Shown here: positions 1 to 64,000 of the stretch, piece after piece | Layout: every line of letters starts with the position of its first letter | Position numbering within the stretch: the stretch's first letter is position 1 | From: Diphasiastrum complanatum | Taxonomy: Eukaryota; Streptophyta; Lycopodiopsida; Lycopodiales; Lycopodiaceae | DNA: 64,000 bases | Reading direction: 5' to 3' | Assembly: GCA_029204225.1 (NCBI GenBank) | Contig: CM055113.1 | Coordinates: 3,115,194-3,179,193, forward strand | Made by a program: the position numbers and the translations under genes | The notes under the pieces: model-generated | The model's input: only the letters and a program-made list of their open reading frames with translations | Database searches by the model: none | Told to the model about the DNA's origin: nothing

Positions 1-1053
1 CACATGTATCACTATCGTGACAAGCTCCGCCAACAATCTTGAAGGCCAAGTAGACCAGGCAAGCCAACCTCGTGTAGCAAAAGTACTTGACCTTCGCTCA
101 CGAGTGAGTTTAGGAAAACCCCCCATAAATATGACAAGCATAAGGAAGTAGCAAGAGTAAAACTGAGCATGAATAGTATCAGTCATCTTGGCTCCAAGGG
201 GAAACAATGTTTTAAAGATTATTTTGTGAGTAATTTTTAACCCTAAATATCATTGTTAAGTTCTATTCATTGCTTAAGTCAACTAAGTTATATTCATAGC
301 TTGATTGCTAATAAGTTTCTTTGATGTGTCTATAGAATGCGACTTGGCTAAAAGAATGGTTTGGTGGTACAAAAAAAAAAAACCATTTTTCATTGTAAAG
401 TTTTGGTAATACATTTCACTTTTTGGGGATTTAGAAGGGAGCTCAATAGATGCTACCCATGAGTTAATGCAACGAAGGCGTCTCTAGTAATGATAGGCCT
501 ACCCTCTTGGAGTATTGAGGCGTAAGTGGTGGACGTACTCTCTCTTTGTTGAACCTTTTTGTGTGCATTTCTACCCAAAAAGGTAGTGTCCTTGATAGTC
601 CATGTTGTACACTAAACCATGCTTTTAGCCATCTATGGCAGAGTTCCAACTGACGAAGAATATAAACTCTACTACAATCTTAATTTCAAGAACATGCATA
701 GGGAATTGGAAAGTAGAGAAATCTTTCCAATAGATCAGGTAAACCCTAGCTTATGACTTTTAGTTGAAACTACTCTTTTTTTTAAATAGGTTTGCGCTGC
801 ATTCCACTTTCACAAAATACATATATATCTCATTATGGGTTTTGCATTGCATTCAAATTTCTCAAAGCACTTATGATGGCATGTGTAGATTGATGAAGCG
901 CAAGAGGAGCAAATTGATCAAGAACTTGCACACGAACATGAGGAGGGGACGGCAACAACAGTGGTGGTAATTGGCGGCAGCGGTAGGGGTGATGATGACG
1001 AGGAAGCTGTAGGCATTCGTAGAGGCGAAGCCTTCATCTCAAATGAAAACTGA
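1..1053 (+). pseudogene. En/Spm-associated (Transposase_24-like) gene, 3' part
   Basis: This is the end of a multi-exon gene whose start lies before the window; complete copies begin at 22970, 39303 and 62504. Frame 1 runs from base 1 to 225 with stop codons at 40-42 and 88-90, and includes SEFRK and, further on, SISHLGSKGK, which resemble the NKANR..HTSGSKS stretch of plant Ptta/En/Spm (Transposase_24) proteins. A GT-AG intron at 226-335 keeps phase 0 and leads into NATWLKEWFGG. A later exon (about 629-738, YGRVPTDEEYKLYY) is joined over a second phase-0 GT-AG intron (739-888) to an acidic last exon (889-1053, IDEAQEEQIDQEL, stop TGA). The two stops are shared by all copies, so this is a pseudogene. 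The family call is by resemblance only. Confidence 0.45.
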
Positions 1054-1074
1054 AGCTCTAAAAAACGGTAAATA

Positions 1075-1480
1075 TGAAGCAAAGGTTTCACACGATGAAA
1101 ATGAGTGAAGTTCAGACCATGATGATATACTTGACAGGATTAAGAAGGTACATGATTAACTATGTAATCCAAGAAATCATTGACCATGTGGATATAGAGA
1201 GTCTACACTCAATGGATTATTAGCATCTTATGAGAACTTGGTGACCACACTATTGGTGTGGGAAAGTACACTCTCTTTTGATGAAAATTTTGAAATTCTC
1301 TTACAAGAGAAGTTAAGATTATACATTTACAATGAAGTCTTTCTCAAAAAGTGGAGGAAACAAGCCAGCCACTAACTATATAATAAGGTTAATGGACAAA
1401 GAAAAGAGAAACACAATGCATTCATGTTGATATAGCCATAAAACACAAATCACAAATAAAGCTCCATGGAATCATCAATT
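1075..1480 (+). pseudogene. copia gag remnant, truncated at both ends
   Basis: Reads KQRFHTMKMSE followed by a leucine/isoleucine-rich stretch, the central part of a Ty1/copia UBN2-type gag. It starts abruptly at the 6.4-kb deletion junction: unit C shows the missing upstream gag at 46690-46980. It is broken by stops and also lacks 93 bp present in C (47311-47403). No zinc knuckle is visible. Confidence 0.7.
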
Positions 1481-1490
1481 AGAATTGAAG

Positions 1491-2229: not shown

Positions 2230-3264
2230 AATTATACCACTACCGAACGTGAAGCCTTGGCAATGGTATATGCGGTTCAGAAGTTTCGCCACTATCTTCT
2301 GGGAAAAGTTTTTGCCTTCTTCACTAATCATCAGGCACTGTTATACCTCATTAACAAGACTTGCACGACAGGTTGTATCACTAGATGGATCCTATTACTG
2401 CGAGAATTTGAGTTTAGAATCGTGGTTCATAAGGGAGTTCAATATTTTCTAGCAGATCATCTGTCGCGAATCCCTAACCTACCCCCACCCCCCCAATTTG
2501 ACCTCAGGATCCACATTGTGGACGAGAAGACAGCCTTCTTGCATGATGAGTTAGACAAAGAGGTCTACATGGATCAACCCCCAAGATATGTCTCGAATTC
2601 ACTTCCTAATTATGTATGTAGAATGCATAGGAGTATCTATGGTCTAAAGCAGTCAGCTCGACAATGGTCCAAAAAGAAAGATCAAGCCCTGAAATCCTTG
2701 GGATTCAAGCCATTAATGGCCTATTCCAATGTGTATGTAAGAATTATAGATGGGAAGATTATCATTGTGGTTGTGTATGTGGACAACACTCTCATACTCT
2801 GCAAGAGTGAGAGGCTGATTGCTAAAGTGAAGAATGACATCTCGAAATATTTCAAGATTGTAGATTTGGGAGAAGCCAGGTGCTACCTTGTCTTCCAGAT
2901 TGATAGAGACTTTGAGGGAGGTAAATTGTACATTCATCAGTCCAGATACACCCAGAAAATCCTAGAGGATTTTGGGATGTTGAATTGCAAAGGAGCGAAT
3001 ACTCCAATGCTTGCAAAAATAGTACTGACGAACAAAAATTGTTCGAGGACTGAAGAAGAGAGAGAGTTGATGCAGGTCACACCTTATAGGAAACCGATAG
3101 GATCATTGATGTACCTTGCAGATAACACACATCCTAAAATTGCTTATGCTATGTTCAAGATGAGCCAATTTTGCATGAATCCAAGCTCGGCACATTGGAA
3201 GATTGCAGCAAATTTTGCAGTATCTTCAATTAGCAAGGGATTTTCATTTGTGTTATTGTCGTGA
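2230..3264 (+). pseudogene. Chimera: gypsy RNase H fused to copia reverse transcriptase
   Basis: An open frame whose first quarter is Ty3/gypsy-type RNase H (NYTTTEREALAMVYAVQKF, then NHQALLYLINK, then ADHLSRIPNL; about 2230-2480). It continues in frame, after a C-rich stretch, into Ty1/copia reverse transcriptase (DEKTAFLHDELDKEVYM, then SIYGLKQSARQW, YVDNTLIL, YRKPIGSLMYL). The methionine at 2257 gives 335 codons. The RNase H lacks its N-terminal DASD part and has TNH in place of the usual TDH aspartate. The reverse transcriptase lacks its N-terminal fingers and reads YVDN rather than YVDD. The domain order and mixed superfamilies are not those of any standard element. The frame is the same in units B and C. 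Confidence 0.85.
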
Positions 3265-3841
3265 TGCAGGGTTCCAGATGATTTCCTACAGTGATGCTAG
3301 CTGGGCATCCCTCAAGGACGACTATAAAAGTGTCTAAGGAGGATGCACCATTGCGTCAGGAGCAGCAATTCTCTGGGTCAGCAAGAAATAGACCATTGTA
3401 CCTCAGTCATCCTGTGAAGCAGAGTACGTTGCAGCAGCAAAGATGGCCAATGAGATAATATGGCTCAAATAGTTCCTTGACAACTTGGGCAAAACGAGAA
3501 ACAAACCTTTGGTTTTGTAGATCGACAACACATCTGCAATGCATCTGACAAAAGACCTTGTGTTTCACTCAAATACAAAACACATCGCGATCAAGTACCA
3601 CTTGATCAGGGATCTGATTGGGAAGAAGATGTTGCAAACTACCTTCATTGGAACGAAAGACATGGCTGTTGACATTTTCACAAAGGCCTTAGACAAAGGT
3701 CTGTTCGATAAACAGAGGAGCAGTGTTGGAATCGTCAAGCTATCATGCTTTGAGAGGGAACTGAAGAAACGAAATGTTTCTATTGCCAAAACTTTGCTAG
3801 CTTTCAATCCTGAACCTTTCACAAAAGATGACAAGACATGA
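3265..3841 (+). pseudogene. copia RNase H with several stops
   Basis: Follows directly on the reverse transcriptase. Readable blocks are YSDASWAS, SSCEAEYVAAAKMANEI, IDNTSAMHL and FHSNTKHIAIKYHLIRD, then VDIFTKALDK: the usual copia RNase H core and C-terminal tail. The catalytic acidic residues in the first three blocks are present. Stops interrupt at about 3335, 3389, 3470 and 3520, so it is not translatable. A distal 100-codon open piece is 3539-3841. Confidence 0.85.
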
Positions 3842-3918
3842 CACGACACGACACAATACGAAATTAGTCATGCTCCTCAACTAACGAAGAAGATCAGCCA
3901 AGTATCATGGGGTACAAA

Positions 3919-4509
3919 TGTCAGATCAGATATCATGACATCATTAAAAGCACTCTAGATCGTGGCTAATCTACCACTCTTGTAATTTGTGATTAGTTGT
4001 AGATGTTTAATCACTCTAATCTAGAAGTTACACGGCACAACTATATACTTTCTGTTTGATGAATAATATAGTATGCTAGTAAGCAAAACAAGAATTCAGA
4101 AGACAAAAATATAGAATACATGTCCACGAGACAATTTTGTAATAGGATTTGTAGATCCAGAAGTCTACTAGTAAGCGAGATGTAATTCATGAGAGAACTG
4201 TATTTCTCTCACACCAACGCACTGCATGGATCTGTCATGCAGTGCTTGAAGAATCAAGAAGATCAATAGATAATTTTGTAGTTGTTGCGCACATTATTAT
4301 TCTATATGATTGTATGATCTTGAATGTATTTTTGTCTGCTGCTATTTGTGTGTTTGATTCACTTGCTCATTTAATTTTGCACTTCGATTTGATATTCTTG
4401 AATGCTATATTATTCTGTTAATGTAGAATAGCAGTGTCTGTTACTCTTTGAAAGATTGTAGGAATGATATAGCCGATAGTGGCCAGCAATCATGTCTGAA
4501 TTCCTGACA
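3919..4509 (+). repeat. copia 3' LTR (591 bp)
   Basis: Begins TGTCAG and ends CTGACA, a perfect 6-bp inverted terminus of the TG...CA type. It lies 78 bp after the copia RNase H frame and just after a short purine stretch (CATGGGG). That is where the 3' LTR of this + strand element should be. No second copy exists upstream in the same unit, so the 5' LTR is lost and the boundaries rest on the termini alone. Confidence 0.6.
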
Positions 4510-4700
4510 AACTAATCTTGTTCACGAATCCTTTCGCTTCGTGCTTCGCTTCACAATCACATGGGTATAAGGAAATAATTCGAGTGTCATGAAATTGTTC
4601 GTGAATCGTTCGAGATTTTGTTTTATCAGTTTCTCACCAGAGTTTTTCTAGCAAGAATTTGCATTTTCTAAGTGCATTTCTTGCATCATTTACTTAGCAT
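4510..4700. other. Spacer between + copia LTR and minus copia stub
   Basis: AT-rich joint without a frame. It holds an imperfect hairpin at 4651-4684 (GCAAGAA...TTCTTGC) and a duplicated TTCGAG motif. It probably contains flanking DNA of both adjoining elements. Confidence 0.4.
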
Positions 4701-5863
4701 TTGACTCACACTAAGCAAATTCTTGGTAATAGATGGAATAAACAAGACATCCTCGAAATGAACATTCCTATTTGCAGAAAGATAAATAGGAATTGTGCCA
4801 ATCCCTTTGATTGCACACTCACCATCATTGGCCGTTTAGATCACCCTCTTGTCATCTCCATATGCCAACAAAGAAGTGAAGTACTCATGTGAGAACTTGC
4901 TCCACTATCAATCCACCAAGGATCTAGATCTCCATCATTAACAAGCATACATGAAGATATCACAAAAGCATCATCATTTGCATCTTGAACATCCAAACCA
5001 TTCTCATCAAGAGTAAGATTACCTTGCTTGTCTCCTTGATCTCTCTTCTTCTTGTAGCACTCACTTGCAAAGTGTCCTTTGATGCCACAATAGAAGCATT
5101 TGAGCTTTGCTCTATCCTTCTTTTTGCCAATTGATCTTGCCCTTGAGACCACTTACTTTTGCTTTTGCCCTTGATGAAGATAGCCTCCTCTTGATATAGA
5201 TCTACCTCTTGCTTGAAGCCTATATTCTTCATTGACCAAGATCTCTTAAAGATCAATCAAACTTGAAAAATTTCTTTGAATAGCAAAGACTTGAACAATT
5301 TTAGCATGAGCATCTAACAATCCATTAAGAATAACTTGAACAAGCTCTCCTTCCTTAATGCTTTCATCAATGCAAGACAACCCATCATTCAATGCTTTCA
5401 TCCTCAAAAAAAAGTACTTGGACTTTCTTCATTCTTTTGCAAACAAGAATAGATTTTTTCTCTTAGAGTTCAACACTCTAGAAGTAAACTTGGATTCATA
5501 AAGCTTCTTCAATGAATTCCAAGCTTCCAAAGATGATGTGCACTTACCAACTTCCTTGAGAAGCTCATTGGTAACATTCATCTTTATCATGTGTAGAGCC
5601 TTCTTGGCCCTCTTGTCATACCTCACTTGATCTTGTTGTGTTGTTGGTCTCTCCTCCAAATCTAGAATAGTATCCAAAGCATCATTCATCTCAAGAAGTG
5701 ACTCCATCCTCACTTTCCACAATGAATAATTACTTGAGGTAAGCCTATCATTGGCTTCCAACATGACTCCAATTGAGGTTGCCATGTAGCAATGACATGA
5801 TCTTCTTTTTAAACCTATTTCAGTGCACAAAGAACTCCTTTGAACAACAACAAATGCTTTCAA
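4701..5863 (-). pseudogene. Minus-strand copia stub 1: gag to protease
   Basis: Read leftward from 5863. The UBN2 gag probably starts at an internal methionine (MATSIGVMLEANDRL), followed by SSNYSLWKVRMESLL and EAWNSLKKLYESK. The frame breaks near 5429; the gag zinc knuckle CFYCGIKGHFASEC (C-x2-C-x4-H-x4-C) lies near 5060-5100, and the protease active site WIDSGASSHM near 4890-4920. A further frame gives GIGTIPIYLS and LFIPSITKNLLSVS, after which the element ends near 4701. At least two frameshifts are shared by all copies. Integrase, reverse transcriptase and 3' LTR are absent. Confidence 0.85.
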
Positions 5864-6386
5864 AAGAAATCACAAAGATTTGAAACTATCTCAAAAATTC
5901 TCTTCTAGCACTTATACCAAGCAAATCGACACATAGAATCATGGAATCTTGATCAACCTATGATCTACCCTCAATATAATGACTTTTGCCACTTCCTAAG
6001 ATTGAAATACACTCAAATAAAGTCCAAAAACCTCACTATTTAGAGATCCAATCAAAACTAGGCTTTTGTCGAAATCACAAAAGGTTGACTTTTCCAATCT
6101 ACATGCAAATGCTGAAATTTTGATTATGCAATCTAACAGCCACCACTAGGGCTAATCCAATGATGCATAAATTGGCTAAATCCAATATGTGAAATCATAA
6201 AATGGAATTGATCAAGTTTGAAAACCTGTATAGGGTTTTGATCTACAAAAGATCCAATCTACAAAAGCAAAAAACTCGATTTTGGTGTGGAATCCCCTCT
6301 AGCATGCTCTAGTCTTGATATCTTCACCAAATCATTGATAGAACTAATTTCCTCCTTCAAAATCTGAAACACAAGCTCTAATAGCA
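5864..6386 (-). promoter_or_regulatory. Leader and primer-binding site of copia stub 1
   Basis: Non-coding AT-rich leader between LTR and gag. Next to the LTR, 6372-6386 reads on the minus strand TGCTATTAGAGCTTG, one base from the TGGTATTAGAGC type seen in many plant copia elements primed by initiator tRNA-Met. No other structure was seen. Confidence 0.55.
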
Positions 6387-6594
6387 TGTGAAAGATTTCA
6401 GATCATTATGATCCAATCCACTTGAAAGATCATTGGTTAGAAAGAGAAATACACTACCAATCTCACCAATGTAAAAAACTCAGCATCTACACACAAAATG
6501 AGATGCAAACACTATTAGAACTTGATCAAACTTGAATGAAATGATAAAGTGTTGTTGCTGACCGTACAAAACCACCAAGCTATTGTATTTCACA
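6387..6594 (-). repeat. copia LTR 1 (208 bp), 5' LTR of stub 1
   Basis: Starts TGTGAAA and ends TTTCACA on the + strand, a perfect 7-bp inverted terminus. It abuts the primer-binding site on its left, as expected for the 5' LTR of a minus-strand element. The partner LTR is missing. The outer (right) edge is followed by 32 bp and then the RT fragment of stub 2. Confidence 0.6.
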
Positions 6595-6626
6595 CGTATG
6601 AATCCAAAAATAACAAACATAGATCA

Positions 6627-7071
6627 TTCTACACATAAAATTGCATGCAATCACAAGCATAGTGCACCAATGGACAGTCGAACCGAGAGAACCATGTATA
6701 AGCATGATCTTGTATATCCATTTGCAAGTGATAGGTGCATCTTACCATCAGGTATCTCAACCAAGTTACACGTCCTATTTTTCAATATAGCTTCCATTTC
6801 TATTTCCATAGCTTCACGCCACTCCTTGTGCTCCTTTGCTTTATCAAAAGTTTTTTTTTTTTAAGCCTTGAGAATAGAACCCAGAAGGGCTACATTCATC
6901 TCTAATCTTGCAGGAGGTTCTACTTGATCTTCTAAGCTCTCCCTGCTCACTTGATTCAGGAGTATCTCCCTTATTAGCATCACTTTTTACTGACAAGTAC
7001 CACTTAGGCACTCTCCTAGGAATCTCATTATTGACCCTGTCTTTTCCAAACTGAAATTGGATGTTCCTCAC
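6627..7071 (-). pseudogene. Minus-strand copia stub 2: linker and RT start
   Basis: Minus-strand reading includes PRRVPKWYLSV and RRSSRTSCKIRDE (variable linker between copia integrase and RT), then KAKEHKEWREAMEIEMEAIL and NLVEIPDGKM, the conserved start of copia reverse transcriptase (RVT_2). The linker and the RT start are in different frames, and the RT stops after about 60 residues near 6627, the same base at which the second copy in unit A begins (12527). No catalytic motifs remain. Confidence 0.75.
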
Positions 7072-7263
7072 ACGTGTCTAAGCACCTGATTCCGTGCAGT
7101 ACCAAGTCAGACCCAATCAATGTCCTTTTGATCTCTTTTGATCCAAGATTGAACAAGATAGCTAGGAAAATGGGCCTTGACAACTTCTAGCTCAAGATTG
7201 ATGAAAATTTTTTCACTTAGATGGACCAAAATGCATGGTAACCTTAGGTAGGCTTTGATACCA
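7072..7263 (-). promoter_or_regulatory. Leader and primer-binding site of copia stub 2
   Basis: At 7252-7263 the minus strand reads TGGTATCAAAGC, close to the TGGTATCAGAGC site for plant initiator tRNA-Met, separated by 3 bp from the LTR start at 7267. The leader runs directly into the RT linker, so gag, protease and integrase were deleted inside this element. Confidence 0.65.
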
Positions 7264-7266
7264 TTT

Positions 7267-8000
7267 TGAATTCACACGTGTGGATTGTCCACAACATTTA
7301 CTTGTGATCTCCTAAGGTGTGTAGATGCACCAAGATCAAGATTAGATTGAGATTCAAGATCAATCTTAGATCCTATGGCAAAAACACACTACTACATGCA
7401 TTCAATCACTTCCAACTCTCACTCACATGTGTAGGAAGTGTTCAAAAAATAATCTAAGTAAAACCAAGCTGCTCTCCTCGAGTAGAGAGATAAAAAGCAT
7501 CATGAGCTCTCGGGTAAAGAGAGAAAGCTAGAAATCCAATAACTCACAAAATCCATAAAATCACCAAATCAATTAGCTTCAAAATGAGGAGTACAATGAT
7601 ACTAGTAGACCCACGAGCTACCACTATGCTTAACTATGATTGGACCATACTTTGTCAACTCTTGATCCTATTGGACCATTGATCCATGCACCTCTTAATT
7701 CTATTGGACTATATTCAAGCACACCTCAATTTCCTATTGGACCTCACAAGGTTCCACCTCTAAATCCTATTGGACCTCTTGGAATTCATCAAACAAAAGC
7801 TCTACACTTGTCTACACTCTAATTGGGACGTGTTTAGCCTCTTACTCTATTTTGGCTCAATAGTGGCATTACAAGTGGAAATGCATAATTTGCCATCTAT
7901 GCCAAATTTATTCCTATCAACATCCTACACCTAGATGCTTGATGTAAAAAAAAAAAGACCCCTATATCTAACATAGATAATCTTTTTCAATTCTTCACAT
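7267..8000 (-). repeat. copia LTR of stub 2 (about 734 bp)
   Basis: TG edge next to the primer-binding site, and TTCACA at the outer edge, whose first 12 minus-strand bases match those of the 701-bp LTR at 9493-10193. It contains a short minisatellite with several spaced TTGGAC repeats (about 7637-7760) that produces a spurious 60-codon frame. The outer edge abuts the gag of stub 3, and the LTR's first bases TGTGA supply that gag's stop codon. Confidence 0.5.
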
Positions 8001-8712
8001 AATGCCTGGATGCTTCTGCTTTCCATTGGTCTTCTTTTTGCCCTTGAATGAGAAATTGGCTTTCTCATCATCATCCTGCAAAGACAAGGAACTCATCCTA
8101 GATTTTGCATGGAGCATCCTACACTCTTCAACCACTAATACACTGTGAAGTTTTTCTATAGTTGGCAAAGTGTCTTTCTTGGATGGCAAAACTTTGGACC
8201 AAATTTGCAAAGTCATCTTCTAGACCATTAAGAACAATTTGTACAAGCTCTCCATCATGAATCTTCTCTCCAATGGAAGCCAACTCCCTATTTAGAGACT
8301 TGATTTTGAGTACATAATCCTATGCACTCTCCTCACTTCTCTTCATGCTTTGCAAAACCTGATTTCTAAGCATGAGTACTCTTGAAGTGTTACTAGATTC
8401 ATAGATTGATTTTAAAGACTCCCAAGCCTCTTCAGCACTAGTACATGCTGATAATTCTCTCAACAAATCATTGCTCACATTCATCTTCACACAATGAAGT
8501 GCAAGCCTAGATCTCTTCTTGTATCTAGCTAACTCATGTGCACCTAGAGGTTCATCTTCATCTTCAATCAAGAACTCATGAAGGTCTTGGAGCACCAAGA
8601 GTGACTCCATCCTAACCTTCCAAATAGCATAATTTGTAGAATTCAATCTCTCACTAGCTTCTAGAAGGTATGCTCCAGCACATCCCATCTTACTAGTGAC
8701 TTCTACAAACAA
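7995..8712 (-). pseudogene. Minus-strand copia stub 3: gag, with stop and frameshift
   Basis: UBN2-type gag read from 8712: EASERLNSTNYAIWKVRMES, EFLIEDEDEPLG, EEAWESLKSIYES, then after a TAG near 8322 a second piece including TIEKLHSVLVVEECRML. A 4-bp insertion near 8175 shifts the frame relative to the intact copy at 13895-14608. The zinc knuckle and all pol domains are missing, because the frame ends in the adjoining LTR after KGKKKTNGK. It is a broken allele of the A-internal copy. Confidence 0.85.
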
Positions 8713-9492
8713 GAAATAGATTTGATTGACTTAAAACTCACAAAGGTCTCACACTTGCTGTGTTTCACTCAAATTTGATTTCTAATCCAACAAATGGACT
8801 TATAATCACAGTTCTATCACTCCCTCACAAAGCTGGAATGAAGATAAGAGGAAGTGAAAACTACTTTCAAACAAATCTTGCCAAGAAATGGATTTGATTG
8901 TCTCTAGAAACTCACTAAGGTCTCTCTCTTGTAGTTTTTCACTCAAATTATTTTTCTAATCCAACAAATGGACTTATAATCTCAGTTCTAGCACTCCCTC
9001 ACAAATTTGGAATGAAGATAAAATGATGTGAAATCTACTTACAATCAAATCTTGCCAATTTTGGCTATTTTTGGACAAAAAAATGACTTAATCTCTTTCT
9101 TCCTTCTTGGTGTACTTTCAAGACCTTTTTTAACCTTAAGAGGACTTGAACTCAGCCTAGATTAATTGGAATCCATGAAACAAATTCAAATCTAATCAAT
9201 GGCAAATGATCTTGGTAGATTATCCTAGGATCTCCACCAAAAATTACACCAACAGCTCACAAATTGATTTTTTTTGGATCAAATGAATACTATGCATTAA
9301 ATGCAGGTTCAGAGGTGCCCACACATGTGGACAGTACGGATTTGGACCCCTACCAAGTTTGGGATCAAATCTCCTCACCAAAATCAAGATTCTAGCTTGC
9401 CCTCTCAATACTAGTTTTTAGCACCAAAACTTGCTAAAAATGGATTTGCATTAGATCAATGGCTTATGCTCTTGTACTTGGATCTAATACCA
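8713..9492 (-). repeat. Leader of stub 3 with tandem duplication and PBS
   Basis: Two imperfect head-to-tail copies of a roughly 172-bp segment (8711-8882 and 8883-9054; shared AATCCAACAAATGGACTTAT and CACTCCCTCACAAA). The rest to 9473 is non-coding. At 9474-9492 the minus strand reads TGGTATTAGATCCAAG next to the LTR, a primer-binding site of the copia type. Confidence 0.65.
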
Positions 9493-10193
9493 TGTGAAAT
9501 TACTGTACTTTAGGACCATAAATGGATTTACAAAAGATCCACAAGAGTGATTGGATGCTTGCTTAACAATCTATCAGAAAATTAGACACAAAAAAGTTGA
9601 TCTAGATTGGCAATTTGGCAAACAACAAGCATTAACAATGACAAGCATTGATCAACATTGAAATCCGAGCCCACACTCGTGTACTACAGGCTGTAGTACG
9701 GCCTTCAACCTGAAAAACAGGTAGAAATTGATTTGATTTCATTTGGATCACAAAAACTCAATGTACATAGTGAACTAGCTTGAGATTGCCAATGAGCTAT
9801 GAAAATTTTCTATCTTCTCACTATGGAGAGAGGGAATACATAGCAAATTCGACTTCCTTCTTGAAGTTAGGTGGATTTCCAGCATGTAATAAGGAAGTTA
9901 ACTCACTCTCCTTGACCTAAAATAAAACCTTAGTCTATTTCCTAGAGTTATGCTTGGTAGGTACCTAGTTGGTCAAATTTTCACCTTAAACTTAGGTGTA
10001 GGTCCTATAAAGTAGGGATGACCACCAAATAGACATGACCAACTCTCTTGACTTGACCTAACCTATATTAGGAGTGGGTTGCCACGTGGCATCTTGGCCT
10101 TACATGTGTGGAACCCAATTATACACAATATTTAAAATGTTCCACATGGTCTTTGATCAAGCTAGATTTGCCAATTTTTGGCAATTCTTCACA
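9493..10193 (-). repeat. copia LTR of stub 3 (701 bp)
   Basis: TGTGAA at the left edge next to the primer-binding site, TTCACA at the right edge. The right edge lies 2 bp before the first readable Helentron codon, so this element inserted in, or recombined into, the Helentron coding region. No partner LTR. Confidence 0.6.
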
Positions 10194-10195
10194 TT

Positions 10196-11229
10196 AATGG
10201 AGCAGATGGCATTTTTCGGACTAGAACAATGACCTCTACAGAAGATATTGTATGGATACAATTTGACAAGCATGAAATAGGTAAAAAAAACTCGAGAAAA
10301 TTATAGACATATGTACAAAACCACTAACATAAACAAAATATGGACTCCAATACATCGACTTACGAAAGAATTTCAAATTGGCCAATCCGTATTTAATAAA
10401 ATTACAAGAAAACAATTTCCAATCAGAATAGCAATAGCAAGAACAATGCACCGAGCACAAGGTCTAACAATAACCGAACTAGCATTTAATCCCATAAAAG
10501 TTTCAAAACATGGTTTGATTTACACAGCTCTAACACGTGTTAAAAAACCAAAGAATTTATACATCACATCGCCATTAATTTCTGAACACTTTAAAATCGA
10601 TATATCTGTCCAACAAGAAATGACACATCTCAAAACCACCGCAAAATGGACCTCCCATATTCCGAATATGTATACATACACAAAAACACATCTTATTATT
10701 CAATCACTGAACACTAGATCATTATCTAAATACAAATACAGTATTCTAAATGACCATAATCTAATGGCATCAGACATATTGTGTTTACAAGAAACACGAA
10801 CCCCTCATCATGAACAACTTTTTGCAACAATCTTTGAAACCTTTTACAATTATGCTTTTATAGGATCAACACTATTGTATTGTAAAACTCAACACCTTGA
10901 ACACATTGAATTATGTAATACATTGCACACTGAAATCATTCATGCCACATTCACTTATAAAACCTACAGTATACACATACTTGCAATATACAGACAACCA
11001 AATTCTAGTATTTCCACATTTATTGAACAATTAAACACTACTTACCAACATTCCAAAAACCATGCCAATTGTTATAATTGGCGACATGAATATTGATACC
11101 TTAAGCATAAATACCAATTTCAAAAAACTTGCGTCCATTACGTTTCAACATAATATACAACTAACTTTCAAACAAGTAACCACTATATATGGCACACACT
11201 TGGATCATGTCTGGACAAATATAAGTTAA
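10196..11229 (+). pseudogene. Helentron helicase C-term and endonuclease, frameshifted
   Basis: Starts inside the helicase at NGADGIF (Pif1/Helitron type), then has a +1 shift in an 8-A run near 10283, shared by all copies. The frame from 10311 holds helicase motif V (HRAQGLTI) and motif VI (YTALTRV), then an endonuclease/exonuclease/phosphatase domain (SLNTRS, CLQETRT, IYRQPNSS). A 2-bp deletion near 11037 ends the frame at 11096. IIGDMNID and THLDHVW follow in another frame. The last part with the SDH motif is deleted, so the enzyme is inactive. Helicase followed by this endonuclease is the arrangement known from Helentrons. The Rep domain is absent. Confidence 0.8.
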
Positions 11230-11659
11230 ATGAACTAAACCTTATAACGGCCATAACTTTTGCATTTCAAGTCGGATTTAAATGAACCGAAAAGCAAAAG
11301 TGAGTAGAATCACGTGATGAATCTATTGTTGTTGAAAGAAACAGTTTTTGAATAATTGATTGGAGGTTACTAAGCTATCAGGAATTTAATAAAGAACAAG
11401 TCCTACAGTCGGATATATAATAAGTCTTTATTATATGTATATCAGCTTTTTGGAACATACAAGCTGAATATTATCCCCAAAATTGTTGGAACACACAATT
11501 TGGGATGTTACTTTGAAGAAAAAAAAAGAGGAAACATTGTTGAAACATACAATGTTGATGCCATACTTTTACATGTACTTGAGGGGTTTTAAATAATGAA
11601 AATTGAGTAAATATACTATGAACTAATATAAAGATACTGGGAAACAAGGATGGGATGTC
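11230..11659. other. Non-coding joint, Helentron end to gypsy LTR
   Basis: AT-rich, no usable frame. The start corresponds to sequence 3' of a 356-bp segment present in unit C (57205-57560). It contains repeated TTGGAACA/TTGAAACA motifs. No gene seen. Confidence 0.4.
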
Positions 11660-12064
11660 TGTTACTATAAATTGTTGAAACTTTCATCAAATCTCTGAAC
11701 ATGATCGTAGAAGCATACTCAATTTTCTATCAAAATTATACTATCAAGAATCAATTATCTATATATATATTAACATTGAGTACACATTAGATGAAGAGTG
11801 CTGGGCTACTGTAGATAGTGAGATTAGTGAAACTATTACTGACTTGTTACCTGAAGGTAGCTATTCTATTTTAGCCCCGTTACATTTATGAAGAGTTTGG
11901 AACACTCTTTTATATAAAATACAGTGTATGCTATAAAGATTCAGGATTGACAGATACAGAATCATTGATACTCGCGTAAAGTGAGATCTGATACTTGATT
12001 TTGCTGATCTACCCCTTTGAACATTTCTAGTTAGTTCAATCCCTTGCTAGAAAATAGTTTAACA
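11660..12064 (+). repeat. gypsy-type LTR candidate with TATA box
   Basis: TGTTA...TAACA termini about 405 bp apart, with a TATATAAAAT box at 11911-11920 about 150 bp before the right edge. A tRNA-primer-like TTGGTGTGTCTGCCAGG follows at once. About 3.4 kb further on in unit B, or after the inserted copy in A, lies the gypsy-type gag. No partner LTR, so the boundaries are tentative. Confidence 0.35.
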
Positions 12065-12240
12065 TTGGTGTGTCTGCCAGGAGCCAAGATTTGAGAAGGG
12101 ATAAGATTTGTATTTGATGGCCATTTATCCTCTCCCATGAAAAGTACAAATGATGGATTTTATTTATAGGATTTTATTCTACCAAGAATGAAAATGAACT
12201 CCAAAACAAATTGGGTGTTAAGATTTCTTTTATGATTGTG
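12065..12240. other. Leader start of gypsy gag, cut by insertion
   Basis: Primer-binding-like site and leader, identical to unit B up to TTATGATTGTG. At 12241 unit A departs into unrelated sequence, while B continues to gag. The same TTATGATTGTG recurs at 19055-19065, where the normal order resumes. Confidence 0.6.
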
Positions 12241-12526
12241 TTTTATACGTTACCAAGTCTTAAAAGATCATGGAAAATGTACCTCACCATTTGTCACTAA
12301 AAGGGATTAATTGATTTGAGGTGCTCAAACTTATAAAAATTGAAACCAACTGAGGAGGTTTACGGTTTATCTACAAAGATGTGCTGATGTCATTTTTATT
12401 GGTTTACGGTTTGAATCTTTCTATCTGACACAAGAAAAACCGCATTTGAAGGAAAAGCATCACATTGAAACGAAGGTATTGCAATTCAATAGCTCCTAGC
12501 AACTCACGACTTTATTTGTTAAAAAA
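12241..12526. other. 286 bp unique to unit A
   Basis: Occurs nowhere else in the window that I can see. No open frame with recognisable domains. It fills the gap between the left insertion junction and the point where the internal duplicate starts (12527, matching 6627). Confidence 0.6.
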
Positions 12527-19157: not shown

Positions 19158-21866
19158 TTGAAATATATAAGAGAGGTTTTTACTTATCTTGCAAAAACAA
19201 GAACCATGGATGATAGTTTGTTATATGAGCATTTTGGAAACATGGATGTGGAAGCTATACATCCACCATCCAATGAAGTAAATGTCATCTATCAACTCAT
19301 TTCATGGGTATCTAGCATCATAATTGATGATGTGATTGATTTGAGAGAGAAACAATTGTTATATAAAGAGCGTCCTATAGCTTCTCAATTCCTTGAGTGT
19401 GATGAAAAGAGTTGTATACTCCAAGTTGATGAATATGAAAATTTTCAGAATAATAATCGTGAAAAGATACTAGATAACCCCCATATTCAAGAAGAATTTG
19501 ATACAACAAATCATGAACTATACCAATCATTGAGTGTGACAAGTGGATCCTCAATTATTGATTGGAAAGATTTTTCTTTTAATAAAGACTATTAGCAAAA
19601 TCAAGATGAAAAGACTATTGATACCGATGAGGTGCTAATAGAAGATACAAATGATACAAAGACAAGTGATGATCACTCAATTGATAAAGAAGAGAATTTG
19701 AGTTTTGTTGTTGAACTGACACACAATTATTTGGAGGAAATAACTCTTGAGGATAACATGATTAAAGATGGGATTGAAAACACAGATGATAATCTCCTAT
19801 ATGATAAGGCTCAACCATTACAGGGTGAAAATAAATTTGACGGTTATGAAAGTATAAAAAGAACTGGATTTGAAAATCTTCTAATGAATTGTAGTGAGCA
19901 TAAAGATTTGCTACCTTATAGTAAGGAAAAACAAATGTTATTGTTCACTAAAGAGAGTGAAATGTTGCAAAGAATATGGTATATGAAATGGAAATCTATT
20001 TCCATGAAAAAGAGAGTAACGATTAAGAAATTATTATTACCCAATAATATTGGTTGGGATATGTTACAGGAGTTCAGAAAATTGTCTAGATATGACATTA
20101 TTGATATGTATCCTGACAACTTTGATTATGAGAATGAAACATATGGATATGGTAAATGATAAATCTCAGGAAAATTATACTTCTAATACACATTTGATAG
20201 GTTTTAATATGGATGATGATTCAAACATTAATTATATGAGTGAAGATCTAAGTGAAACAGTTCAAGCATCATATGAACAATGTGATCAACTAAATTCAAA
20301 CAGTTTTTGTATTGATCGTATCGATGATAATCATCATTGTGATATAGACCTTGATGCAATGAGATCCATAGTCAAGATAAAGGATTATATCAATTCTGAT
20401 GATATCAACTATGGAAGTGTAGTAGATAATTCCCTGATCCAAGAAGAATATACTTTTGAAAAAAATGTCAACAAGATCTAAAAGAATATATAGTTGATTA
20501 TGATCGAGTATTGATAGAGGATGGTTTTGATAGTGATATTAGCATATATGAGAAAATTGATGAAGAGAATATCATATTATTAAATGATGACATATGTCAT
20601 GAATGCAAAGAAAAAGAGAGACTTGGAAAGATATTAACTGATAATGAAGTTCTATGTCAAACTAAATTAGATTTGAAAGAATACAATGAAGAAGAGGATA
20701 ACCTTTGTGAGGATGATTCCATAGACTTACAAACGAGAGTTCTTGAAAAAACCATTGCTAAAGTAATGAATGAAAGGAGACAACCAATAAATATTCTGTA
20801 TAACACTACTAGGTTGCCTAAGTTAAGGGGTTTGTTGCCAGAATGTAGTGGCACATTGAATGAGGATGCTGATAGACACATACAAGTGTTTAATACATTT
20901 TGCTTTATCAATAGAATATATGATCCTGGCCATGAACTAAGGTTGTTTGTTATGACTTTGAAGGGAGAAGCTATACATTGGTATCATAATTTACCTTTGG
21001 ATTCCATTACTACTTTGGAGGAGTTCTACACCCTATTTATTAAGCAGTTTAGACCTCCTTGTGATATAGCTGAGCTAGTATCTACATTGTCAACCATGCA
21101 ACAAAAACCAATGGAAACTATACAACAATATGCTCGTCATTTTAAAGAATTGGTTTTTCAAGTGAATAAAATGACTAACTTGTCTGAACTCATAAGACTG
21201 TCTTTCTTTTTGATAGGATCAAAACGTGATATTCAAATAAATGTTCGCCAATCTATTCCCTTTACTTTGGATGAGGCTATATGTAAAGCCAAAGCCATTG
21301 AGCTAGCCATTTTAGTCACAGATCAGTGCCAACCTATAGTGATACCATTGGGAGAAAATGATACTATAGCAAGATGTCCATCCCACCTTTTAGATAAAGA
21401 AAATATGGAATTTGATGGAGTTCATTTCTCAATGATGAATCAACAATTGGATTTTAAAATAAATCCACCAGAACAAAATACTAGAATCTTGGATTCTAGA
21501 TGTAGAAGTAGAAGTGCCAATACGGATATGGATGATATGAAAGAAGTGTTGAAAAAGTGTATGGATAACATGGATAGAACTATATCTTCTTTATCTTCGG
21601 ATGTGAAGCTTCTAAAAAGTCAACATCAATCTTTAAAAAGTGTGAAAATGGAAAATGAATCACTATCTCAAAATTGTTTGATGAAAGATAACATGAACAA
21701 TGATATGATGAACCATTTATATGGGTTTAATGAAGATACAAGACCTTCATTCTATTGTGGAAGATGTGAAGGAGCACGGTTAGCTGACAGAGGGAGGCAT
21801 GGAAAAATAATGTTGAATGTTGATGATGATGACGGTTATCCAGATAACAAGTTTGATCATGGATAA
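19158..21866 (+). pseudogene. Ty3/gypsy-type gag-only polyprotein
   Basis: Four pieces: 19158-19595, a TAG read-through gap, 19632-20159, a frame change (20050-20481), and return to the first frame at 20511-21866 (451 codons). The N-terminal pieces are unusually acidic and rich in Asp, Glu and Asn. The last piece holds a Retrotrans_gag-type domain at about residues 115-270 (DADRHIQVFNTFCFINR, LKGEAIHWYHNLP, FYTLFIKQFRPP, IQQYARHFKELV), then a likely coiled coil (about 345-390) and a lone YCGRC near the end. No protease or pol follows. Such gag-only units are known among non-autonomous LTR elements. The stop and both shifts are common to all three copies. The long N-terminal part is not one I recognise. 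Confidence 0.75.
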
Positions 21867-22969
21867 GTTGATGGTCAGAAATTTTCCACCTTACCGTCTT
21901 TGATTTCCACTATGAGGTAAGGTGTATTAGTTGTTTTTAATTATTCTTATGTTTTCTAAGAAAAACTTTGAAAAATATATATATATATTTTGCAGTTTAT
22001 AAAGATTGAATGCTTAAGGCATATAAAAGTGATGTTTATTTTGAATTATAGAATTTGTAAGATTACAGCTTTTTATAGTAAAAAATAAAAAGAATAAAAA
22101 ATAATAATAATAATAAATAAAAAAAATTTGTGAGCACATACACTTTACACATGCATCGTTAAAGCACGATATGTTTGCATTCATTTGATAATGTTTTGAA
22201 AATTGCATTGCATTTCCCTATGCACACTGCATTTATTTGATGATAGGGGTGCAATGTTAACTACTTTTTCCAAATGGGCATGTTTGGTTGAATCAGAAGC
22301 ATCTGGGAGGTCTGAGAGGTAAAATGAAGTTTTTGGGTGGAATAAAACATTACCAGTGGGGTGGTGAATGGGAAAAATTATTATAGTTTGAATCATCATG
22401 GAAATGCTCTGACCTTTTGAGAGTATTTGTGAGAACTTTTGAGTGATGAGTGAAAAAAAAATGAGTGGAGAGAAAATGATGAGTGTTTTCCATATATCTC
22501 CAACTAGTTTGAACATAGATTTAAAAATTGGATCTAGATTTTTCTGTGTGAGGAACTAGATATACTTGATCTTTAAGTTTCGATCTTTTAATCCGATCTA
22601 TAGATGAAGAATGTGAGGATATACGTATATTTGAGAGATTCAATACCTTATGAGACAAAAAGAGTCTGTAAGGAGAGGATAGGAATTTATTGAGAATGAA
22701 AATTGGGGGGGGGGGGGGGGGGCGCACTTGTGAGGGTGCGCCCATCTCTAGGTCTAGTGGGCCGTAGCTCTGGCGGTGGCCATGGAGGTGTCACCTCTTG
22801 CAGCGACCAAGAGGAAGCACTTTGTCTCGTGAGAGGCTTGCATCCTTCTGCTCGTCAAGCAGTCTAAGTGCAGTCGATGCATGAGGACGCGATGACAATT
22901 GGCTAACCTATCACTATTGGCAAGTCTAGCACATGCACATATGAGTTTCATGTCGATTGATCTTTAAAT
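21867..22969. other. Tail of gypsy gag unit, AT microsatellite and poly-G
   Basis: No gene. Contains an 8-bp inverted repeat CACCTTAC/GTAAGGTG at 21887-21894 and 21917-21924, an AAT-rich microsatellite near 22085-22125, and a pure G run of about 18 bases near 22706-22723. The last 230 bp before the En/Spm-like start are GC-richer. The same tail in B and C has shorter G runs. Confidence 0.6.
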
Positions 22970-24214
22970 ATGGGCGATAATAATGGATATTTGGTCATGA
23001 GACGAGCTCGTGAATTGACTAAATTATATATTAGCAATTCTCTCAACGATTTGCGCCTACAGCTACGAGACGAGAAGGATCGTATCTTAGAGACATTGCA
23101 TAGGGAATTTCCATGTGACCATCTAGTTAGTAATAAATTGATGAAGACAAAGCTTGGCGATCACATGTATCACTATCGTGACAAGCTCCGCCAACAATCT
23201 TGAAGGCCAAGTAGACCAGGCAAGCCAACCTCGTGTAGCAAAAGTACTTGACCTTCGCTCACGAGTGAGTTTAGGAAAACCCCCCATAAATATGACAAGC
23301 ATAAGGAAGTAGCAAGAGTAAAACTGAGCATGAATAGTATCAGTCATCTTGGCTCCAAGGGGAAACAATGTTTTAAAGATTATTTTGTGAGTAATTTTTA
23401 ACCCTAAATATCATTGTTAAGTTCTATTCATTGCTTAAGTCAACTAAGTTATATTCATAGCTTGATTGCTAATAAGTTTCTTTGATGTGTCTATAGAATG
23501 CGACTTGGCTAAAAGAATGGTTTGGTGGTACAAAAAAAAAAAACCATTTTTCATTGTAAAGTTTTGGTAATACATTTCACTTTTTGGGGATTTAGAAGGG
23601 AGCTCAATAGATGCTACCCATGAGTTAATGCAACGAAGGCGTCTCTAGTAATGATAGGCCTACCCTCTTGGAGTATTGAGGCGTAAGTGGTGGACGTACT
23701 CTCTCTTTGTTGAACCTTTTTGTGTGCATTTCTACCCAAAAAGGTAGTGTCCTTGATAGTCCATGTTGTACACTAAACCATGCTTTTAGCCATCTATGGC
23801 AGAGTTCCAACTGACGAAGAATATAAACTCTACTACAATCTTAATTTCAAGAACATGCATAGGGAATTGGAAAGTAGAGAAATCTTTCCAATAGATCAGG
23901 TAAACCCTAGCTTATGACTTTTAGTTGAAACTACTCTTTTTTTTAAATAGGTTTGCGCTGCATTCCACTTTCACAAAATACATATATATCTCATTATGGG
24001 TTTTGCATTGCATTCAAATTTCTCAAAGCACTTATGATGGCATGTGTAGATTGATGAAGCGCAAGAGGAGCAAATTGATCAAGAACTTGCACACGAACAT
24101 GAGGAGGGGACGGCAACAACAGTGGTGGTAATTGGCGGCAGCGGTAGGGGTGATGATGACGAGGAAGCTGTAGGCATTCGTAGAGGCGAAGCCTTCATCT
24201 CAAATGAAAACTGA
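22970..24214 (+). pseudogene. En/Spm-associated (Transposase_24-like) gene
   Basis: Complete extent of the gene seen partially at 1-1053. It starts MGDNNGYLVMRRARELTKLY, continues to EFPCDHLVSNKLMKTKL and HMYHYRDKLRQ, then two in-frame TGA stops (23201-23203 and 23249-23251). After these come the SEFRK and SISHLGSKGK blocks up to 23386, intron 23387-23496, NATWLKEWFGG, exon about 23790-23899, intron 23900-24049, and the last acidic exon 24050-24214. The layout (helical N-terminus, basic middle block, PTDEEY near the end) resembles plant Transposase_24 proteins. These accompany CACTA elements and have no proven catalytic role. Splice sites are conserved in all copies although the frame is broken. 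Confidence 0.45.
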
Positions 24215-24235
24215 AGCTCTAAAAAACGGTAAATA

Positions 24236-24641
24236 TGAAGCAAAGGTTTCACACGATGAAAATGAGTGAAGTTCAGACCATGATGATATACTTGACAGGA
24301 TTAAGAAGGTACATGATTAACTATGTAATCCAAGAAATCATTGACCATGTGGATATAGAGAGTCTACACTCAATGGATTATTAGCATCTTATGAGAACTT
24401 GGTGACCACACTATTGGTGTGGGAAAGTACACTCTCTTTTGATGAAAATTTTGAAATTCTCTTACAAGAGAAGTTAAGATTATACATTTACAATGAAGTC
24501 TTTCTCAAAAAGTGGAGGAAACAAGCCAGCCACTAACTATATAATAAGGTTAATGGACAAAGAAAAGAGAAACACAATGCATTCATGTTGATATAGCCAT
24601 AAAACACAAATCACAAATAAAGCTCCATGGAATCATCAATT
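24236..24641 (+). pseudogene. copia gag remnant (unit B)
   Basis: As 1075-1480, with the same deletion junctions. Confidence 0.7.
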
Positions 24642-24651
24642 AGAATTGAAG

Positions 24652-25390
24652 GGCACATGACCAGTCTCATTGGCTGTTTCGAGGCCTATACACCTTACAG
24701 TACCTAGAAATATATTCACCTTGGCAACAATAGCACACAAGCTATTAAAGGTGAAGGTACTGTAAGCTTAAGCTTTGCAAATGATCAGTCTAAGATACTT
24801 TCTAAAGTCCTGTATGTACCAAATTTATCTACGACTCTGCTCTCTGTAAGCAAAATCACAGATCTAGGACATAGAGTAGAAATTAAATGTGATCAGTGCA
24901 AAGTAGTTAATAGGACATGCAAGATCCTAGCACTCGGAAAGAGACATGGATACTTGTATAAATTAAGTCATTTTTTTTCTGCCTCTAGTCTGGCGCTCAG
25001 TACTTCTATTCATGCAAATAAAAGTTTACTTTGGCATTATAGACATGGTCACTTGAATCATGCTACTGTACAACAAATGTCTAGACAATCTATTGTTCTT
25101 GATATCGACTATCTTCATGATAAAGTCGAGTTACCTATCTGTCAAGACTGTCTAGTTGGTAAACAGACTAGAAAACCATTTAAATCAAGCCATCAACATA
25201 TTGCTAGAGGATTGCTAGACGTTGTACATTCAGACATTTGTGGCTCGATGAAAAATCCTTCGCTGAAGGATGCAAAATATTTTATGGCCTTTATTGATGA
25301 ATTTTCTAGAAGGACTGTGGTGTACTTCATAAAGAAGAAATCAAAAGCCTTCAACTGCTTCAGAATCTTCAAAGAGCGTGCAGAGAAGTC
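24652..25390 (+). pseudogene. copia protease tail to integrase start (unit B)
   Basis: As 1491-2229. One difference seen is SVSKI for SVSRI near 24850. The integrase again ends at KERAEK, where the gypsy piece begins. Confidence 0.85.
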
Positions 25391-26425
25391 AATTATACCA
25401 CTACCGAACGTGAAGCCTTGGCAATGGTATATGCGGTTCAGAAGTTTCGCCACTATCTTCTGGGAAAAGTTTTTGCCTTCTTCACTAATCATCAGGCACT
25501 GTTATACCTCATTAACAAGACTTGCACGACAGGTTGTATCACTAGATGGATCCTATTACTGCGAGAATTTGAGTTTAGAATCGTGGTTCATAAGGGAGTT
25601 CAATATTTTCTAGCAGATCATCTGTCGCGAATCCCTAACCTACCCCCACCCCCCCAATTTGACCTCAGGATCCACATTGTGGACGAGAAGACAGCCTTCT
25701 TGCATGATGAGTTAGACAAAGAGGTCTACATGGATCAACCCCCAAGATATGTCTCGAATTCACTTCCTAATTATGTATGTAGAATGCATAGGAGTATCTA
25801 TGGTCTAAAGCAGTCAGCTCGACAATGGTCCAAAAAGAAAGATCAAGCCCTGAAATCCTTGGGATTCAAGCCATTAATGGCCTATTCCAATGTGTATGTA
25901 AGAATTATAGATGGGAAGATTATCATTGTGGTTGTGTATGTGGACAACACTCTCATACTCTGCAAGAGTGAGAGGCTGATTGCTAAAGTGAAGAATGACA
26001 TCTCGAAATATTTCAAGATTGTAGATTTGGGAGAAGCCAGGTGCTACCTTGTCTTCCAGATTGATAGAGACTTTGAGGGAGGTAAATTGTACATTCATCA
26101 GTCCAGATACACCCAGAAAATCCTAGAGGATTTTGGGATGTTGAATTGCAAAGGAGCGAATACTCCAATGCTTGCAAAAATAGTACTGACGAACAAAAAT
26201 TGTTCGAGGACTGAAGAAGAGAGAGAGTTGATGCAGGTCACACCTTATAGGAAACCGATAGGATCATTGATGTACCTTGCAGATAACACACATCCTAAAA
26301 TTGCTTATGCTATGTTCAAGATGAGCCAATTTTGCATGAATCCAAGCTCGGCACATTGGAAGATTGCAGCAAATTTTGCAGTATCTTCAATTAGCAAGGG
26401 ATTTTCATTTGTGTTATTGTCGTGA
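25391..26425 (+). pseudogene. gypsy RNase H / copia RT chimera (unit B)
   Basis: Same 335-codon frame from 25418 as in unit A, including TNH in the RNase H part and YVDN in the RT part. Confidence 0.85.
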
Positions 26426-27002: not shown

Positions 27003-27079
27003 CACGACACGACACAATACGAAATTAGTCATGCTCCTCAACTAACGAAGAAGATCAGCCAAGTATCATGGGGTACAAA

Positions 27080-27670: not shown

Positions 27671-27861
27671 AACTAATCTTGTTCACGAATCCTTTCGCTT
27701 CGTGCTTCGCTTCACAATCACATGGGTATAAGGAAATAATTCGAGTGTCATGAAATTGTTCGTGAATCGTTCGAGATTTTGTTTTATCAGTTTCTCACCA
27801 GAGTTTTTCTAGCAAGAATTTGCATTTTCTAAGTGCATTTCTTGCATCATTTACTTAGCAT

Positions 27862-29755: not shown

Positions 29756-29787
29756 CGTATGAATCCAAAAATAACAAACATAGATCA

Positions 29788-33354: not shown

Positions 33355-33356
33355 TT

Positions 33357-56171: not shown

Positions 56172-56173
56172 TT

Positions 56174-57281: not shown

Positions 57282-57326
57282 AAAACCTTGAACAAAGTGC
57301 AATTTACCACTTATTGCAAAGGTACG

Positions 57327-61409: not shown

Positions 61410-62503
61410 GTTGATGGTCAGAAATTTTCCACCTTACCGTCTTTGATTTCCATTATGAGGTAAGGTGTATTAGTTGTTTTTAATTATTCTTATGTTTTCT
61501 AAGAAAAACTTTGAAATATATATATATATATTTTGCAGTTTATAAAGATTGAATGCTTAAGGCATATAAAAGTGATGTTTATTTTGAATTATAGAATTTG
61601 TAAGATTACAGCTTTTTATAGTAAAAAATAAAAAGAATAAAATAATAATAATAATAATAAATAAAAAAAATTTGTGAGCACATACACTTTACACATGCAT
61701 CGTTAAAGCACGATATGTTTGCATTCATTTGATAATGTTTTGAAAATTGCATTGCATTTCCCTATGCACACTGCATTTATTTGATGATAGGGGTGCAATG
61801 TTAACTACTTTTTCCAAATGGGCATGTTTGGTTGAATCAGAAGCATCTGGGGGGTCTGAGAGGTAAAATGAAGTTTTTGGGTGGAATAAAACATTACCAG
61901 TGGGGTGGTGAATGGGAAAAATTATTATAGTTTGAATCATCATGGAAATGCTCTGACCTTTTGAGAGTATTTGTGAGAACTTTTGAGTGATGAGTGAAAA
62001 AAAAATGAGTGGAGAGAAAATGATGAGTGTTTTCCATATATCTCCAACTAGTTTGAACATAGATTTAAAAATTGGATCTAGATTTTTCTGTGTGAGGAAC
62101 TAGATATACTTGATCTTTAAGTTTCGATCTTTTAATCCGATCTATAGATGAAGAATGTGAGGATATACGTATATTTGAGAGATTCAATACCTTATGAGAC
62201 AAAAAGAGTCTGTAAGGAGAGGATAGGAATTTATTGAGAATGAAAATTGGGGGGGGGGCACTTCTGAGGGTGCGCCCATCTCTAGGTCCAGTGGGTCGTA
62301 GCTCTGGCGGTGGCCGTGGAGGTGTCACCTCTTGCAGCGACCAAGAGGAAGCACTTTGTCTCGTGAGAGGATTGCATCCTTCTGCTCGTCAAGCAGTCTA
62401 AGAGCAGTCGATGCATGAGGACGCGACGACAATTGGCTAACCTATCACTATTGGCAAGTCTAGCACATGCCCATATGAGTTTCATGTCGATTGATCTTTA
62501 AAT
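61410..62503. other. Tail of gypsy gag unit (unit C)
   Basis: As 21867-22969. The G run is about 9 bases (near 62249), the shortest of the three. Confidence 0.6.
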
Positions 62504-63746
62504 ATGGGAGATAATAATGGATATTTGGTCATGAGACGAGCTCGTGAATTGACTAAATTATATCTTAGCAATTCTCTCAACGATTTGCGCCTACAGCCAC
62601 GAGACGAGAAGGATCGTATCTTAGAGACATTGCATAGGGAATTTCCATGTGACCATCTAGTTAGTAATAAATTGATGAAGACAAAGCTTGGCGATCACAT
62701 GTATCACTATCGTGACAAGCTCCGCCAACAATCTTGAAGGCCAAGTAGACCAGGCAAGCCAACCTCGTGTAGCAAAAGTACTTGACCTTCGCTCACGAGT
62801 GAGTTTAGGAAAACCCCCCATAAATATGACAAGCATAAGGAAGTAGCAAGAGTAAAACTGAGCATGAATAGTATCAGTCATCTTGGCTCCAAGGGGAAAC
62901 AATGTTTTAAAGATTATTTTGTGAGTAATTTTTAACCCTAAATATCATTGTTAAGTTCTATTCATTGCTTAAGTCAACTAAGTTATATTCATAGCTCGAT
63001 TGCTAACAAGTTTCTTTGATGTGTCTATAGAATGCGACTTGGCTAAAAGAATGGTTTGGTGCTACAAAAAAAAAACCATTTTTCATTGTAAAGTTTTGGT
63101 AATACATTTCACTTTTTGGGGATTTAGAAGGGAGCTCAATAGATGCTACCCATGAGTTAATGCAACGAAGGCGTCCCTAGTAATGATAGGCCTACCCTCT
63201 TGGAGTATTGAGGCGTAAGTGGTGGACGTACTCTCTCTTTGTTGATCCTTTTTGTGTGCATTTCTACCCAAAAAGGTAGTGTCCTTGACAGTCCATGTTG
63301 TACACCAAACCATGCTTTTAGCCATCTATGGCAGAGTTCCAACTGACGAAGAATATAAACTCTACTACAATCTTAATTTCAAGAACATGCATAGGGAATT
63401 GGAAAGTAGAGAAATCTTTCCAATAGATCAGGTAAACCCTAACTTATGACTTTTAGTTGAAACTACTCTTTTTTTTAAATAGGTTTGCACTGCATTCAAC
63501 TTTCACAAAATACATATATATCTCATTATGGGTTTTGCATTTCATTCAAATTTCTCAAAGCACTTATGATGGCATGTGTAGATTGATGAAGCGCAAGAGG
63601 AGCAAATTGATCAAGAACTTGCACACGATCATGAGGAGGGGACGGCAACAACAGTGGTGGGAACTGGCGGCAGCGGCAGGGGTGATGATGACGAGGAAGC
63701 TGTAGGCATTCGTAGAGGCGAAGCCTTCATCTCAAATGAAAACTGA
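62504..63746 (+). pseudogene. En/Spm-associated gene (unit D)
   Basis: Same exon layout and stops as in the other units. Last intron 63432-63581, last exon 63582-63746. V-I to G-T changes near 63660 open an 82-codon shadow frame on the + strand. Confidence 0.45.
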
Positions 63747-64000
63747 AGCTCTAAAAAACTATAAATATTTTTTTGTAAATAGAATAGATATGCAAGCACA
63801 TTGTCATTTAGAATACGTAGCACAAAAAGCTTGAGCAATTTTGATCAATGCTAGTGCTCACCTCTTAAAAAGAGCAATAGAATCCTCTCAAAAAAAAGGG
63901 AGGTTGCATCCGATATTTTCCAACAAAAAAATGGGGTCTCGCGAGTGCAAATGAGCACCTGTGGGCCCAAAAATTTAGTTTTAATCCAAAATAAACATCG
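62696..64000. repeat. Tandem macro-repeat, unit D (start only)
   Basis: Continues to the window end. 63747-64000 matches 40547-40800, so D is of the C type and carries at least the left end of the 6.4-kb block. Confidence 0.9.

Follow-up and report, generated by a model that had tools for sequence, protein, structure and literature searches.

Gene-free megasatellites with repeating patterns of interspersed transposons have been described in human (PMC2588610). According to the accessible part of that report, they consist of transposon-only units of approximately 3.5-6 kb, and one family occurs on many chromosomes. Among plants, tandem arrays with units of approximately 30 kb are known at the soybean Rhg1 locus (31-kb unit, up to 10 copies; PMC4455779) and at the cucumber F locus (30.2-kb unit; PMC7072070). 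At the latter a unit junction is described and copy number is altered by unequal crossing over; at both loci the units contain trait-linked genes. The maize repeats CRM1TR and CRM4TR (PMC3648361) are derived from retrotransposons and, at CRM1TR locus I, contain younger LTR elements; illegitimate recombination was proposed as their start. Average monomer lengths are 696 and 819 nt for CRM1TR, and each repeat comes from one element subfamily.

Here we describe an array of transposon fragments in Diphasiastrum complanatum. The stretch analysed (the window, 64,000 nucleotides, C22:3,115,194-3,179,193) lies wholly inside a single head-to-tail array, as seen from self-comparison, the flanks and the unit map (1-64000, forward strand). 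In contrast to the human megasatellites, as far as that report describes them, it occupies one plant locus, has a unit of about 24 kb and retains a readable founder junction. It resembles Rhg1 and F in being a plant array of large units; however, its units are eroded and the scanned frames contain no host-gene domain, whereas the other two have trait-linked genes in the unit. Like the maize repeats, it is retrotransposon-derived and has taken in younger LTR elements, but it combines several element kinds in 24 kb. No plant array of this kind was noticed in a literature search that most subscription papers lay outside. The array is a large-unit plant example of the known gene-free transposon megasatellites with a well preserved founder record.

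Comparison of the window with itself produced 20 pairs of at least 300 bp, all of them direct. The longest, of 12.2 kb, pairs positions 1-12241 with 23162-35402 (forward strand, 99.98%; 99.975% unrounded). Identities are at least 97.5%, except in one row of 1.05 kb (95.0%) and one of 0.3 kb (89.1%). The main offsets are 23,161, 22,834 and 23,181, and there is one of 16,336, where a unit has lost 7.1 kb. The original prediction, a head-to-tail repeat with a period of 16-23 kb, is thus borne out: the pairs are all direct, and their main offsets lie around 23 kb, with a single one around 16 kb. Its three and a half recurrences are a fair count for modules but high for whole units, as the window spans about 2.8 periods: there are four copies of the module at unit positions 6459-11041, starting at 6626, 12526, 29787 and 52622, whereas the Ty3-containing module has three complete copies and a partial one. 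The suggested check, self-comparison of the window together with its flanks, showed the repeats continuing on both sides.

Both flanks, fetched and compared, contain the same repeats, so that the array extends past the window in either direction. Its edges lie at C22:3,028,633-3,269,521 (window coordinates -86560 to 154328), a span of approximately 241 kb interrupted by a single gap of 10,000 Ns (-71999 to -62000). The unit, of approximately 23.9 kb, is made up of pieces of Copia, Ty3 and LINE-type elements, some on one strand and some on the other. Window positions 46164-70090 (23,927 bp) served as the reference unit, whose first 17.8 kb (46164-64000, forward strand in the unit map) fall within the window. 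Aligned to it, the array yields 38 blocks, which add up to 208,922 bases; rows of at most 250 bases, at most 90% identity, inverted or contained in longer rows were left out of this map. What remains is the N gap, some short pieces that do not align, and three insertions (9.1, 6.4 and 5.9 kb). By our own count there are about 11 unit-equivalents, based on nine regular junctions, a tenth within an internal duplication and another removed by an 11.4-kb deletion; the figure is provisional, and further units could hide in the N gap. With about 11 unit-equivalents of kilobase size placed head to tail over 241 kb of one locus, the array is a macrosatellite, or megasatellite, and not a classical satellite of short monomers in long arrays, the unit being of about 24 kb; indeed, Tandem Repeats Finder (longest period 500) reported only 15 small rows within the window. 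The wider region also has inverted matches of 72-76% between Copia stretches, which are old family resemblance and not units.

The WRKY family, which is essentially restricted to plants, has at least 151 matches in the genome and none in 14 control genomes. Some of these matches form pairs of equal score, e.g. C8:55.69/56.54 Mb, C10:61.38/61.77 Mb, C1:1.62/1.71 Mb, C4:25.94 Mb and C245, which suggests unmerged haplotypes elsewhere in the assembly. The number of units is therefore uncertain on two counts, these possible haplotypes and the N gap.

Pfam domains were sought in 29 frames: 19 distinct ones among the 37 window ORFs of at least 110 aa, the remaining ORFs being in many cases duplicates from further units, and, from the next 10 kb beyond the window, 10 of the 20 of at least 80 aa. 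Above the curated cut-offs, these frames have no domains other than Copia gag and pol on both strands, together with Ty3 gag/capsid, an RT_RNaseH match, a LINE-type endonuclease, and DUF4219 adjoining Copia gag; several frames have no domain. On the forward strand, Copia pol fragments (Pol_BBD, gag_pre-integrs, RVT_2, with the RT_RNaseH match between) occupy 1547-3264, with frames of equal length at 24708 and 47542; the LINE-type endonuclease fragment (Exo_endo_phos_2) lies at 16178-17200, and the Ty3 gag/capsid fragment (Retrotrans_gag, Ty3_capsid) at 20460-21866. The reverse strand carries two Copia gag fragments, at 5429-5869 (Retrotran_gag_2) and 8320-8730 (longer frames at 13895-14644 and 54103-54723), and a Copia RVT_2 fragment at 46201-46566. 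The claim that element fragments lie on both strands is confirmed by these domains. A single ORF at 2149-3264 has the RT_RNaseH match followed by the Copia RVT_2 match and is a chimeric or rearranged element. No host-gene domain occurs in the 29 scanned frames, where short or split genes that match nothing in Pfam could escape, and in these frames the array contains several kinds of transposon and no host gene. Rfam had no match in the window, and a Chitin_bind_4 search gave none, as did its control.

In the genome (1.74 Gb, 5,176 contigs), dispersed relatives, approximately 72-97% alike, were found for every stretch tested. Among the best 40 candidates per search, copies as close as the array units are confined to C22: the array itself, two short inverted pieces, both 95% alike, at 3.33 and 3.56 Mb, and a partial copy in inverted orientation at 3.82-3.85 Mb. 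One dispersed repeat occupies window positions 43328-45003 (forward strand); among the matches listed, its full-length relatives are 90-93% alike and shorter ones up to 95%. A dispersed element ends near unit position 6520. The module at 58663-60663 has, among the matches listed, a cluster of six matches at C1:81.36-81.58 Mb, 93-97% alike, possibly another local duplication.

The two edges of the array meet the unit at the same place. At the left edge the array starts at unit position 6856 and at the right edge it stops at 6861, with the 6 bp TTCCAA common to both; the outer sides of both edges are unlike the unit. Among the matches listed, a dispersed transposon crosses the right edge unbroken in 39 of 39 non-self rows, and a different one crosses the left edge unbroken in all 38 dispersed rows, the two remaining rows of that search being the query itself and the inverted copy. 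Since these dispersed transposons run unbroken through each edge, the unit was already continuous with both flanks when it was duplicated. At the unit/unit junction the two unrelated transposons are welded to each other. A 151-bp junction query matches end to end in 10 of the best 40 rows, all at C22:3.056-3.224 Mb, within the array; in the other 30 the match starts only at query base 69-72, the start of TTCCAA. Within the window the junction TTCCAA is found, on the forward strand, at 7044-7049 (where the query matches C22:3122168-3122318 end to end), at 12944-12949 in an extra internal duplication of unit 6459-11508 (junction search and unit map), at 30205-30210 (junction search), and at 53019-53024 in the reference unit, the founder breakpoint (edge comparison and junction search). 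When 1 kb around each edge was compared, only matches of at most 20 bp appeared, none linking the two breakpoints. Within the array, no match to the left flank (23.4 kb) reaches 200 bp, and the right flank (9.7 kb) has matches of 71-95% only. Joins sharing at least six bases made up 0.24% of random joins simulated on the same sequence; here there is a single event. Flanks joined to the unit beforehand and a junction private to the array are the features of a tandem segmental duplication in place. The founder is a microhomology-type tandem duplication, with a presumed repair pathway that the microhomology does not fix.

The units are mostly 97-99% alike. Their mean distance over ten blocks is 1.64% (copies covering at most 90% left out), ranging from 0.7% to 2.7% by module. 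Physical and sequence distances are correlated in four of seven modules (p 0.002-0.021); the three with no significant correlation (B, p 0.84; C, 0.26; D, 0.10) indicate that growth was not purely local or that conversion has mixed the units. Module copies covering at most 85% of the query (at most 70% for the inverted copy) were left out of this test. Two neighbouring units, -2983..12241 and 20181..35402, differ by 4 substitutions and 3 gap columns over 15,225 columns, which would make them the most recent duplication or exchange seen in the array. Two right-end copies are 0.18% and 0.11% apart in two modules and 2.9% in a third, and in one far-apart pair a stretch of 1.1 kb differs by only 0.09%, against 0.6-1.0% in most pairs; this stretch looks like conversion. 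At window coordinate -3662, a 0.7-kb module copy (unit 6870-7540) is 5.4-7.5% from all others, the rest being 0-2.2% apart.

Large deletions are present in many units, the largest being of 11.4, 7.4, 7.1 (two neighbours), 6.0, 4.7 and 3.3 kb. A 7.1-kb deletion joining unit 17605 to 818 (unit map, junction at 1066-1075, forward strand, repeated at 24236 via the recent duplication) accounts for the 16-kb period. Fifteen deletion or duplication joins (14 distinct) were tested, and the overlap is at most 4 bp in all, with the qualification that BLAST gives overlaps of up to 8 bp for these joins and that the estimates are sensitive to single substitutions. Several joins look like filler, some of it perhaps due to substitutions. 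An extra internal duplication at 12526-18966 (forward strand) consists of unit 6459-11508 followed by 10464-11041 and 11398-12201. Self-comparison and the unit map, which delimit it, also agree with the original prediction that the units differ through large deletions and duplications, and a composite unit repeated in tandem supports its description as a macrosatellite of transposon debris.

An inverted and rearranged partial copy of the left end of the array lies at C22:3,818,140-3,849,627 and contains a young Copia insertion. It includes the left edge and approximately 0.9 kb of the left flank (3,027,723-3,028,632, reaching 3,849,627); in the next 17 kb there is no match longer than 250 bp to the 274-kb array region. 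The copy stops short of the next unit/unit position, so that little can be read from the missing junction. On average it is farther from the units than these are from one another in all ten blocks (2.66% against 1.64%, with 148 fixed differences); in block 11450-12200 the margin is slight, 2.42% to 2.33%, and certain unit pairs are farther apart than it is. To judge from distances, which give no rooted tree, it probably split off before amplification. The other haplotype was considered as an identity for this locus and judged less likely on two grounds, the end of flank collinearity after approximately 0.9 kb and the mean distance in excess of that within the array; an older inverted duplication is more likely than a haplotype with a large insertion.

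Three Copia-type insertions lie in the array downstream of the window, at 92892-98752, 113634-120055 and 145968-151830, with LTR identities of 99.85%, 99.38% and 100%, respectively. The first adjoins a 3.2-kb fragment of the family of the second. The second and third each contain a single ORF, longer than 1,300 aa, that encodes the Copia domains gag, integrase and RVT_2, and the third is flanked by a 5-bp target duplication, ACAAT. By the rate that PMC3648361 implies (0.00699 for 0.54 My), the ages would be of the order of 1.3 My for the array, 2 My for the inverted copy and at most 0.5 My for the insertions; this rate is not calibrated for D. complanatum, and the ages carry order only.

The following history is, in our opinion, very probable: tandem duplication in place via TTCCAA, followed by unequal exchange, deletions, internal duplications and young Copia insertions. 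A stretch of decayed transposons of approximately 24 kb at one site of C22 would have been duplicated in tandem when a break or template switch led from a point in one transposon, at the right end, to a point in an unrelated one, at the left end, via TTCCAA. From two copies, unequal homologous exchange between units may then have produced the present 11 or so unit-equivalents. In the presumed order of events, units would subsequently lose up to 11 kb at a time by deletions resembling end joining, gain internal duplications and take in young Copia elements.

Two other origins were weighed against duplication in place, both highly improbable. Circular DNA of the unit, inserted at a TTCCAA target and then multiplied, would likewise place both array edges at one unit position, with 6 bp in common. 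However, such an insertion would interrupt the dispersed transposons, which are instead continuous from flank to unit on each side, and the inverted copy also holds left flank together with unit; circle insertion was rejected on the unbroken transposons at both edges. The unit is full of retrotransposon fragments, and such fragments commonly mediate exchange, which would favour a founder duplication through recombination of two LTRs, or of an element with another copy of itself. Yet no alignable homology exists at the breakpoint beyond 6 bp, and this origin was rejected because the edge sequences share only TTCCAA there.

An assembly artefact, with one or two genuine units copied several times over or two haplotypes concatenated, is unlikely, though less so than either of these origins. 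It draws on the equal-score WRKY pairs, some inverted within 1 Mb and some on small contigs, on the 10-kb N gap within the array, and on the 15.2-kb pair only four substitutions apart. Against it, the other units are on average about 1-3% apart and have their own deletions, indels and young insertions, and among the best 40 candidates per search no small contig holds a copy as close as the array units. Haplotypes placed end to end would require the flanks to be repeated inside the array; they are not, and this form was rejected. It is also quite improbable that the array is kept for a function, such as chromatin structure or small RNAs silencing its element families. Some tandem non-coding arrays are functional, and fragments of Copia, Ty3 and LINE-type elements are repeated here on both strands; however, neutral unequal exchange explains the array, and the large deletions and young insertions that many units carry point to weak constraint, from which we infer absence of function. 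No more probable is a version in which a transposon-only macrosatellite with 24-kb units would act as a self-expanding silencing locus, its both-strand fragments feeding small RNAs and its copy number being selected.

The array implies no new mechanism. Arrays of this kind are easily masked as transposons and so missed, and this one marks a site at which copies may be miscounted in assemblies. With a founder junction, a related copy, young insertions and very recent exchange preserved together, the locus records with unusual completeness how tandem arrays can start and grow in a plant genome.
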